From Holophagae bacterium (GTDB lineage Bacteria; Acidobacteriota; Holophagae; Acanthopleuribacterales; Acanthopleuribacteraceae): a DNA stretch of 41,589 nt. The stretch's first letter is position 1. Each line of letters begins with the position of its first letter. The DNA lies in contig JAJCXM010000009.1 in the NCBI GenBank assembly GCA_029263455.1, positions 1 through 41,589 of the forward strand. Reading direction: 5' to 3'. A program made the translations under genes and the position numbers. Below are positions 31,602 to 39,110 of this stretch, piece after piece. The notes under the pieces are model-generated. The model saw only the letters and a program-made list of their open reading frames with translations. It did not search any database and had not been told where the DNA came from.

Positions 31602-31690
31602 TAATATAGGACTGGAACAAATTCGTTTCGTAGGAATCGTCTAATACTATATATATAAGGTAAACGGATGTGATGGGGAAAAGAGGCAAC

Positions 31691-31951
31691 ATGGAAAAGA
31701 ATTATGGCCGTAAAGACTATGCAGATTTCGCGCACGTTTCGGAGACGATTCCAGCTGATGAACCGGTGTTCCTATTGCGAGCTCAAGATGTGAACGCCGC
31801 ACGCACGATTCGTTATTGGGCAGATCAGCACGAGAAATCAGGAGGCGATCCTAAACTCTGTGATTTGGCACGTGAACACGCGAAGCGGATGGATGATTGG
31901 CCCATAAAAAAGGTGGCTGATATGGCGATGTTCGTCGCCGATGAAAAGTAG
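31691..31951 (+). CDS. Small soluble protein, unknown plasmid family
   Basis: An 86-residue soluble protein, reading ADEPVFLLRAQDVNAARTIRYWADQ in short overlapping parts and ending in a KKVADMAMFVADEK tail. The EPVFLLRAQD start resembles small orphan proteins found on plasmids and prophages whose role is unknown. GAGG lies before ATG 31691; in-frame GTG 31670 and ATG 31673 are possible alternatives. It stands alone between the transfer operon and the ncRNA unit, whose promoter begins 16 bases after its stop. Confidence 0.62.
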   Translation: MEKNYGRKDYADFAHVSETIPADEPVFLLRAQDVNAARTIRYWADQHEKSGGDPKLCDLAREHAKRMDDWPIKKVADMAMFVADEK

Positions 31952-31966
31952 CCGTCAACGGACAAC

Positions 31967-31995
31967 TTGACCATCAAGCTGAGAGGCCCTATATT
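31967..31995 (+). promoter_or_regulatory. Sigma70-like promoter of the I-F-repeat-like RNA
   Basis: TTGACC (31967-31972), 17-base spacer, TATATT (31990-31995). Transcription would start about 7 bases later, at 32001-32003, exactly at the first repeat-like hairpin. The spacing is ideal. Confidence 0.72.
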
Positions 31996-31998
31996 GAA

Positions 31999-32094
31999 TT
32001 TGACTGCCGAACAGGCAGCTCAGAAATTAGACTGATGTATTTACATTTAACTGCCGTACAGGCAGGAAAAGCCCGCAAATCACGCGGGCTTTTT
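31999..32094 (+). ncRNA. Small RNA with two type I-F CRISPR-repeat-like hairpins
   Basis: Between a promoter (31967-31995) and a terminator (32067-32094) lie two hairpins. The first, CTGCCGAACAGGCAG (32004-32018), is followed by CTCAGAAA (32019-32026). The second, CTGCCGTACAGGCAG, is at 32051-32065. The known type I-F repeat is a 28-mer whose core reads ACTGCCGTACAGGCAG followed by CTTAGAAA. The first unit matches its 24-base core and handle at 22 of 24 positions, and the second hairpin matches 16 of 16 core bases but not the handle. The interval between units is 19 bases, not the usual 32, and there is no cas gene in the window. This is not a normal CRISPR array. It fits a solitary-repeat-unit RNA, the type reported as RNA anti-CRISPR (Racr) on phages and plasmids, or a decayed mini-array. 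Confidence 0.7.
32067..32094 (+). terminator. Rho-independent terminator of the I-F-like RNA
   Basis: GCCCGC (32071-32076) pairs with GCGGGC (32084-32089) over a 7-base loop, extended by A/T pairs, and followed by a T-run (32090-32094). It is the clearest intrinsic terminator in the window and may also stop the convergent minus-strand operon. Confidence 0.85.
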
Positions 32095-32128
32095 GTTATT
32101 AGTAGCCAGTAGCCCGGCTAGGAGCCAT

Positions 32129-32620
32129 CTAGCGTTTGGCAAAAGGATAGGTGTACTTGGCAAAGACGGGCATGTTAACGAACCAAGTGCGGCCGAGAAC
32201 AGCCACTCCCGTTTCTGTCCAGGCCTCTTCAATCGTAAGTTCACGCGTAACGGTGCGTATTTGGCGTTCGTATAAATCCAAGGCAGCAAGGACATCGATA
32301 AGAAGGAAAATCCCACGCTTGGCCAATAATGTTGAAGTGTCCCATTTTGGATTGACGGCTGACAATTTGAGCTTAGGATTCCAATGTTTAAGCGTCAGTT
32401 CCGCAAGACGCCGATACTGTATGCCGTAGTCTTTATCCGCTCTCGAACATATTGGACACCAACGTCCAGCCATGATGTTGGCGGGCCGAGCGTTAAAAAC
32501 ATGGCCCTTTGAACAGCTCCACTGATGGAGCTGTCTGGAACCGAGATACTCCGTAGAAAGAAAGGTTCCCTCTCGTTTCTTGGCGACGGTATGCATGATT
32601 TTGACGGTGTGTGCCTTCAT
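32129..32620 (-). CDS. Treble-clef-type zinc-finger protein
   Basis: A 163-residue protein. Residues about 30-65 contain QWSCSKGHVFNARPANIM followed by GRWCPICS. This is the pattern W-x-C-x(2)-GH-x-F ... G-x-W-C-P-x-C of treble-clef zinc fingers found in mobile-element proteins and Vsr/HNH-related nucleases. The C-terminal half (TRELTIEEAWTETGVAVLGRT) has no recognised catalytic motif. ATG 32620 overlaps the upstream stop (ATGA), and AGGAA lies upstream. It is the last gene of the 38-32 kb minus-strand operon. A DNA-binding role is inferred. Confidence 0.66.
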   Translation of the reverse strand: MKAHTVKIMHTVAKKREGTFLSTEYLGSRQLHQWSCSKGHVFNARPANIMAGRWCPICSRADKDYGIQYRRLAELTLKHWNPKLKLSAVNPKWDTSTLLAKRGIFLLIDVLAALDLYERQIRTVTRELTIEEAWTETGVAVLGRTWFVNMPVFAKYTYPFAKR

Positions 32621-33081
32621 GATGCGATTCCTGGTAACCAAGAGGAGTTGGGTGGGGTAGGGTAGCTGGAATAATCGTCAGCAATCACGTGATATTGATG
32701 CCCTACACGAACAAGTGTCTGATTTGGGAGCGTACCATTTACCCCGAGATCGCGATGAGGCCCTGAGAACCTGGCGCGATCTGATCGAGTGGTCAAAGAG
32801 TCGGAAGCTTCAATAAGGTACTCATGCACATAGAACCAATGATAGCCCGGATTCATTCCCCCAGAAAGAGCCCCCGAAACGCCAAACGGTCGGCCGTTGA
32901 TGGCAATGGGTGCTTTTAGTTCGTGTCGATCTAAATCATAAATATGTTTCCAAATCGTGGCGTATTGGCCGATCGCTTTGGCTAAAGGACCGTGATAGCG
33001 CAGCCATCCCACCGGCACGATGACGAGGCGTTTTAGGTCGTCTATGATTGTTTGTTGAAAGAGATCCAGTTGACCGATCAT
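32617..33081 (-). CDS. Unknown protein with N-terminal beta-clamp-binding motif
   Basis: A 154-residue protein starting MIGQLDLFQQT. QLDLF (residues 4-8) is the exact consensus of the sliding beta-clamp-binding pentapeptide (QL[S/D]LF) used by polymerases, MutS, Hda and phage/plasmid proteins. The rest (VGWLRYHGPLAKAIGQYATI, GMNPGYHWFYVHEYLIEA) is a compact Trp/Tyr-rich domain that I do not recognise. Both ends overlap neighbours by ATGA. A frameshifted homologue lies at about 38690-39055. It probably attaches to the host replication clamp or recruits the operon products to DNA. Confidence 0.72.
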   Translation of the reverse strand: MIGQLDLFQQTIIDDLKRLVIVPVGWLRYHGPLAKAIGQYATIWKHIYDLDRHELKAPIAINGRPFGVSGALSGGMNPGYHWFYVHEYLIEASDSLTTRSDRARFSGPHRDLGVNGTLPNQTLVRVGHQYHVIADDYSSYPTPPNSSWLPGIAS

Positions 33082-38689: not shown

Positions 38690-39110
38690 TAGGATCCAGA
38701 GCGCGGAAGGGTACCAGTTACCCCAAAGTCACGATGAGGCCTTGAGAACCTGGCGCGATCTGATCGAGTGGTCAAAGGGTCAGAAGCTTCAATATGGCAC
38801 TCATGGACATTGAACCAATGATAGCCCGGATTCTTTCCCGTAGAAAGAGCCCTCAAAATGCCAAACGGTCAACCGTTGATCCAGATCGGTTTCTTAAGTT
38901 CGCAGCGCCATAAATCACGAGGGTGTTTCCAAATTGTCGAGTATTGGCCAATTACATAGGCTAAGGGGCCTTGATAGCGCAACCATTCGACCGGAACGAT
39001 GATTAGAGGATTTGGAAGCTCATAAGCAATGTCAAGCAAATAGATGGAAAATCTGATCGATTTTGTCGAAGACCATATCTCCGTCTGACAATGACCGAAT
39101 ATTCCAATGA
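38690..39110 (-). pseudogene. Decayed duplicate of the clamp-motif and YodL-like genes
   Basis: Nucleotide and translated segments match the intact pair at 32617-33425. These include NPGYHWF-VHE-IEAS-LTTRSDRARFS (about 38720-38850), VPV-WLRY-GPLA--IGQY-TIWKH (about 38930-39000) and RSLSDGDM--D--DQ-FH (about 39035-39085). The copy is frameshifted: the matching segments fall in different minus frames. The QLDLF N-terminus is lost. Order and orientation are the same as in the intact pair, so it is a tandem-type duplication about 6 kb away that has degenerated. Confidence 0.78.

Follow-up and report, generated by a model that had tools for sequence, protein, structure and literature searches.

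Mini-arrays of two type I-F repeats around a shortened spacer of 6N-4 nt are reportedly embedded in cas operons between cas2/3 and cas8f, where they match their own promoter region and guide Cascade to repress the operon itself. This CreR-like class was reportedly described by Shmakov et al. 2023, who are also reported to have proposed that phage mini-arrays inhibit effector expression. RNA anti-CRISPRs (Racrs) are small RNAs which mimic CRISPR repeats, are encoded on mobile elements without cas genes and have their own promoter (PMC10651486). They often lie near acr genes (Camara-Wilpert et al. 2023, PMC10651486). RacrIF1 has the I-F repeat hairpin within a solitary repeat. Its product has no 5' handle and forms only a Cas6f-Cas7f subcomplex, and it titrates Cas6f and Cas7f (PMC10651486). 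I-F interference is also inhibited by non-targeting crRNA through competition (PMC10651486). The SRUFinder definition allows no second repeat within 100 bp, and mini-arrays were discarded (PMC10651486). Among the published Racr cases whose host has CRISPR-Cas, 83% are of the same subtype.

We analyzed a window of 41,589 bases, which is a complete contig within a 6.25-Mb assembly. It encodes ParA, a RepB-type primase, a TraC/TraG-like ATPase and a SNF2-type helicase. The first-pass annotation had spoken of a conjugative element; the first three of these genes make this likely, but no relaxase was identified on the 41,589 bases. Most likely, the element is a plasmid which is, or once was, conjugative. 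At 31967-32094 it carries a compact RNA gene composed of a promoter-like site, an I-F repeat, a short spacer, a second hairpin and a terminator:

31670-31951, + strand: open reading frame of 93 aa directly upstream of the RNA gene, possibly co-transcribed; no family match; putative anti-CRISPR candidate
31967-31995, + strand: sigma-70-type promoter-like site TTGACC-17-TATATT, boxes at 31967-31972 and 31990-31995, 10 of 12 positions as in the consensus
31999-32026, + strand: repeat 1, type I-F, 28 nt, TTTGACTGCCGAACAGGCAGCTCAGAAA, with hairpin at 32004-32018 and handle at 32019-32026
32027-32045, + strand: spacer of 19 nt, TTAGACTGATGTATTTACA
32046-32065, + strand: repeat 2 with hairpin CTGCCGTACAGGCAG (32051-32065), without 3' handle
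32066-32094, + strand: Rho-independent terminator, an 11-bp stem followed by a T run, starting at the next base after hairpin 2
32019-32065, + strand: mini-crRNA of 47 nt (handle, short spacer, hairpin), predicted from the Cas6f cutting rule (PMC10651486)

A promoter, two hairpins, a handle and a terminator had been described at this place before, and both the coordinates and the description were correct on re-reading the sequence. In repeat 1, the hairpin CTGCCGAACAGGCAG is followed by an intact 5' handle, CTCAGAAA (32019-32026). Visual comparison with GTTCACTGCCGTACAGGCAGCTTAGAAA, from an I-F-type array of Legionella, shows repeat 1 to be an I-F repeat with a few substitutions. The interval 32027-32050 has 24 nt, namely the 19-nt spacer and the 5 nt on the 5' side of the hairpin within a repeat of 28 nt. 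The chance expectation for the motif of hairpin and handle in the window is 3e-7 occurrences, and the RNA fold reaches z = -6.5 against shuffled sequences. The Rfam scan of the window gave no match. The promoter had been called ideal. The site itself is confirmed, and the expected start, about 7 nt past the -10 box (~32002), lies directly 5' of hairpin 1; however, 3 promoter-like sites were found in the region scanned compared to 1.8 expected in shuffles, so that the promoter taken alone is weak evidence.

Like the Racrs, the unit is an I-F repeat mimic with an intact Cas6f hairpin, located on a mobile element with no cas genes nearby. The genome contains exactly two exact copies of the hairpin, both in this RNA gene, and neither Csy4 nor Csy3 was found among its genes. 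The description as a stand-alone RNA without cas genes thus holds, and the case which the first-pass annotation had named as contradicting it, an I-F cas operon with a longer matching array on the same replicon, is absent. The unit differs from RacrIF1 in having two hairpins around a short spacer and a predicted product which keeps the handle. With the second hairpin only 47 nt away, it falls outside the solitary-repeat definition. The unit is a mini-array of two repeats around a shortened spacer, not a solitary repeat. Of the Racr-type assignment, the anti-CRISPR role stands as the best explanation, and in relatives the same design repeatedly lies beside acrIF24, whose anti-CRISPR function is proven; the comparison with the solitary repeat RacrIF1 does not stand.

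The unit is also distinct from a functional I-F array, which has a pitch of 60 nt and spacers of 32 nt. It consists of one pair with a hairpin pitch of 47 nt, compared to 60 nt in the real I-F array of the Legionella plasmid, and its spacer has 19 instead of 32 nt. The Legionella array, located on the Legionella longbeachae plasmid pB1445CHC_73K, is of I-F type with canonical spacing, and no cas genes are listed in two stretches of this plasmid (55469-73728).

A blastn search with the window unit revealed the same layout in 12 Serratia marcescens plasmids and in Pseudomonas phage IME307, where 100 nt align at 76% identity and a terminator directly follows hairpin 2. When the Serratia unit was used for the search, 17 Serratia plasmid records were matched. 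Of the eight inspected, six have a complete or almost complete pair, the second hairpin is missing from one, and another no longer has the first. Pseudomonas phage LESphi3, found in the phage search, also carries a unit. Public collections including IMG/VR were then scanned for an I-F hairpin with handle and a second hairpin within 8-32 nt, which yielded 32 stretches from viruses and 79 from genomes. According to their linkage with cas2/3 or cas8f, 47 loci were classed as resembling mobile elements, with no linked cas genes, and 50 as cas-linked. The design is thus common to unrelated mobile elements (Pseudomonas phages, Serratia plasmids and IMG/VR contigs). Close relatives of the window plasmid were not found, and conservation is therefore seen across unrelated elements rather than in the plasmid's own lineage. 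In the Serratia plasmid of locus L009 and related plasmids, the unit is located a few kb from psiB/psiA and adjoins a RelE/Phd toxin-antitoxin pair. The psiB/psiA region is usually the first to be transferred in conjugation.

The spacers of these units follow a length rule. In 38 deduplicated mobile units, the length distribution of the spacers has peaks at 14 nt and 18-21 nt, and some spacers have 24-26 nt. The lengths show a 6-nt periodicity (R=0.55, p=1e-5, phase 1.6), as do those of 48 deduplicated cas-linked units (R=0.59, p=7e-8), both values being uncorrected for kinship among units. The pattern is limited to a pitch of up to 55, and uncapped samples agree: in an uncapped tally of isolated pairs, the hairpin pitch clusters at 42, 46-48, 53-54 and 60. 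Cas-linked mini-arrays prefer spacers of 20 and 26 nt (among loci L046-L121, e.g., L084, L087, L099 and L110). For type I-F, the length L = 6N - 4 corresponds to the number of bases that N subunits of Cas7f cover (PMC7296934). I-F1 spacers shortened by 6, 12 or 18 nt still yield Cascade and R-loops but no longer trigger Cas2/3, and the lower spacer limit for I-F1 Cascade is ~14 nt (PMC7296934). The clusters of the family near 14, 20 and 26 nt and the phase of the periodicity fit 6N-4 with 3, 4 or 5 Cas7f; the 19-nt spacer of the window is one short of the value 20. The short set spacer lengths are a conserved feature, with 6-nt steps matching Cas7f. The 19-base interval had been taken as an argument against a working array. 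This is supported by the 47-nt pitch, but as a sign of decay the interval has to be given up, as set short lengths are conserved.

One upstream protein is common to 14 mobile loci and is encoded directly 5' of the units. In IME307 it was identified as AcrIF24 (E=1.6e-130 to PDB 7elm), and in LESphi3 the upstream gene is annotated as AcrIF24. As a guard against circularity, 19 loci of the AcrIF24 family were collected by protein profile only; ~8 of the 19 are absent from the earlier pattern set. At a distance of 20-620 bp downstream, at least 15 of the 19 have a minimum of two I-F-type hairpins, whose pitch is mostly 45-49 nt and in no case 60; one further locus is cut by the contig end. Compensatory changes are present in some of the stems (CTGCTG...AAGCAG), in support of the hairpin being the selected part. 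The downstream hairpin units are without mention in the AcrIF24 structure paper. The acrIF23-acrIF24-linked units of IME307 and LESphi3 have the layout of the window unit, i.e., a repeat, a short spacer, a handleless hairpin and a terminator, with a pitch of 46 compared to 47 in the window. In contrast to them, an orphan ORF of 93 aa, and no AcrIF24 homologue, lies upstream of the window unit; co-location with an acr gene is seen in the relatives, and no known acr lies beside the window unit.

In phages, AcrIF24-family genes nearly always have one to five tandem I-F-repeat hairpins downstream (L268-L286, L008, L018). Five hairpins in a row with near-duplicate spacers are found in one case, L018/L285. 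A second conserved ORF of ~120 aa is located between the AcrIF24-like gene and the RNA unit in L026 and L073.

Taken together, the RNA of the window is probably a short-spacer mini-crRNA which acts as a decoy against type I-F CRISPR-Cas and represents a variant of the Racrs. Its transcript would extend over ~95 nt from hairpin 1 to the terminator. Cas6f cuts at the 3' base of the stem (PMC10651486); in a cell with a I-F system, it would cut 3' of each hairpin and leave a Cas6f-bound 5' hairpin and the 47-nt mini-crRNA. The latter would contain the 5' handle as the Cas5f-Cas8f site, a guide of ~19 nt for about four Cas7f and the 3' hairpin as the Cas6f site. It would be built into complete but shortened Csy complexes of Cas8f-Cas5f, ~4 Cas7f and Cas6f. 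The first-pass annotation had considered binding of Cas6f and Cas7f only; the predicted product, with its complete 5' handle, should recruit Cas5f-Cas8f too. The shortened complexes would bind DNA weakly at most, would match nothing useful and would never fire Cas2/3. By this, Cas proteins would be drained from real crRNAs during plasmid entry.

Such an RNA might instead serve as a regulatory guide, sending the Cascade of the host to the promoter of cas8f, or to some other gene of the host, for repression without cleavage. Shortened Cascades still bind DNA (PMC7296934), and the cas-linked mini-arrays, a sister class with the same design, point in this direction. About 40 of the 50 have a match with 5'-CC PAM and full seed close upstream (tens of bases), in the gap between cas2/3 and cas8f; compared to shuffles, p is about 0. 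Where mismatches occur, they often fall on every sixth base. This pattern appears to be the signature of Cascade-guided self-repression, and the class served as a positive control for the PAM and seed test on mobile units. The role that Shmakov et al. reportedly proposed for phage mini-arrays would also fit such a guide. For the mobile units, however, the test gave a different picture. Their spacers show no PAM and seed match beyond chance in their own contigs, and units in genomes which own a I-F system have no match to the cas8f region of that system. In 67 + 29 cas8f upstream regions, a set without matched P. aeruginosa or Serratia hosts, no matches beyond chance were found: 19 were counted compared to 2-14 in shuffles, but at least 5 of them are repeat-derived (L021) and the rest fits chance. 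Matches of a Serratia plasmid spacer to the Cedecea locus L099 (CC and 8 nt) and of L013 to L238 were rejected, as they occur at the expected rate. The spacer of the unit in a Pseudomonas indoloxydans prophage has no convincing PAM and seed site in its own genome. Spacers of the mobile set fold on themselves no more strongly than shuffles. Five Serratia plasmid sequences, all of one lineage, were compared pairwise: per site, they differ by 0.05 in hairpins and handle, by 0.21 in the spacer and by 0.19-0.20 in the flanks. The spacers thus drift like neutral sequence, seed positions 1 and 2 included, while the pitch is constant at 47. Kept length and repeats with a drifting guide sequence are what a decoy needs. 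The window unit itself lies on a cas-free element in a genome without I-F cas genes, and no match of its spacer to a cas promoter was found, in contrast to the CreR-like class. We therefore regard a regulatory guide as rather unlikely, although some phage mini-arrays may guide cas gene repression instead.

The spacer matches also bear on two further explanations. In CreTA/CrePA, Cascade represses a neighbouring plasmid toxin gene by means of an antitoxin RNA, and CreA RNAs also consist of one or two ectopic repeats and a short guide (PMC9458426). The window spacer, however, matches no promoter of an adjacent gene: no CC-PAM seed match beyond chance occurs in the last 19.6 kb of the window (p=0.97), and with the PAM rule dropped, the best match in the whole window has 8 nt. 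As the host also has no I-F Cascade which could repress a toxin, a CreA-type role is very improbable. The unit could also be the decayed end of a I-F array, or a remnant or mini-array with an immune spacer against competing elements. The repeats are real I-F repeats, and mini-CRISPR arrays directed against related or rival viruses are known from viruses (PMC11656645; Medvedeva 2019, cited therein); they share with the window unit the location of a mini-array on a mobile element. Against this, the spacer has 19 and not 32 nt and is too short for cleavage, since R-loops below 32 bp fail to trigger Cas2/3 (PMC7296934). A search against viral contigs, with flipped positions left free, gave no match. 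A dedicated promoter and a terminator, and the recurrence of the design on unrelated elements, argue against decay. We consider this origin improbable.

The main weakness of the anti-CRISPR reading is that the window copy has no evident target in its present host. Csy4 is also absent from 199 relatives of the host, which suggests that the RNA is silent or useless there. The resident CRISPR system is of type I-C, with 37 exact repeats, Cas3, Csd1, Cas7, Cas5d and Cas1 (contig C26, 48000-66000). Its repeat is unrelated to the I-F repeat of the window, and among the matches listed for its spacers there is no long match to the window. The window unit thus differs from most published Racr cases, whose host has a system of the same subtype. 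Consequently, the unit might be a passenger without function, or its structured RNA might have a different role in a I-C host. However, both stems are perfect, the handle is intact and promoter-like site and terminator are present, so that no signs of decay are visible. Moreover, plasmids move between hosts, and the RNA would matter in hosts other than the present one; the action in a recipient put forward in the first-pass annotation is an inference. A passenger or an RNA with a different role is therefore unlikely as well.

Tentatively, and with a little less than even confidence, we propose that the decoys form a distinct and widespread class of RNA anti-CRISPRs. Its members would be mini-crRNAs with short spacers, in many cases arranged in tandem and adjoining acrIF24. 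Their fixed length of 6N-4 would lead to whole, cleavage-dead Cascades trapping Cas8f-Cas5f, Cas7f and Cas6f, and a conjugative-type plasmid would carry one beyond the I-F host range. Phage mini-arrays have already been described, and both these and the Racrs are known kinds; as far as the readable literature goes, the new content lies in the tandem units of fixed length that are linked to AcrIF24 and in their contrast to the cas-embedded regulators. If the units are decoys, the two-repeat exclusion in the published Racr survey has set aside a whole group of counter-defence RNAs, among them one at almost all of the AcrIF24-family genes inspected. Through the 6-nt rule, the RNA is linked to the stacking of Cas7f, with the prediction that the length matters and the spacer sequence does not. 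Decoys on mobile elements are also set apart from the look-alikes in cas operons, which have the design in common with them but match their own promoter region.

The RNA gene is located between the 93-aa ORF (31670-31951, + strand) and a convergent small gene (32129-32641, - strand). The 93-aa ORF matches no known Acr. When it was used to search for relatives of the plasmid, none were found in viral contigs, and a weak homologue is located on a Bosea plasmid. A direct repeat of 300 bp with 80% identity (window 32726-33025 and 38705-39004) flanks the large SNF2-type helicase gene. Small related phage proteins of ~80-105 aa with an N-terminus like MxYIIRNNxVIAE are encoded beside short-spacer units, upstream of them (L016, L024, L037 and L042). 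It is possible that they represent a new anti-CRISPR family.
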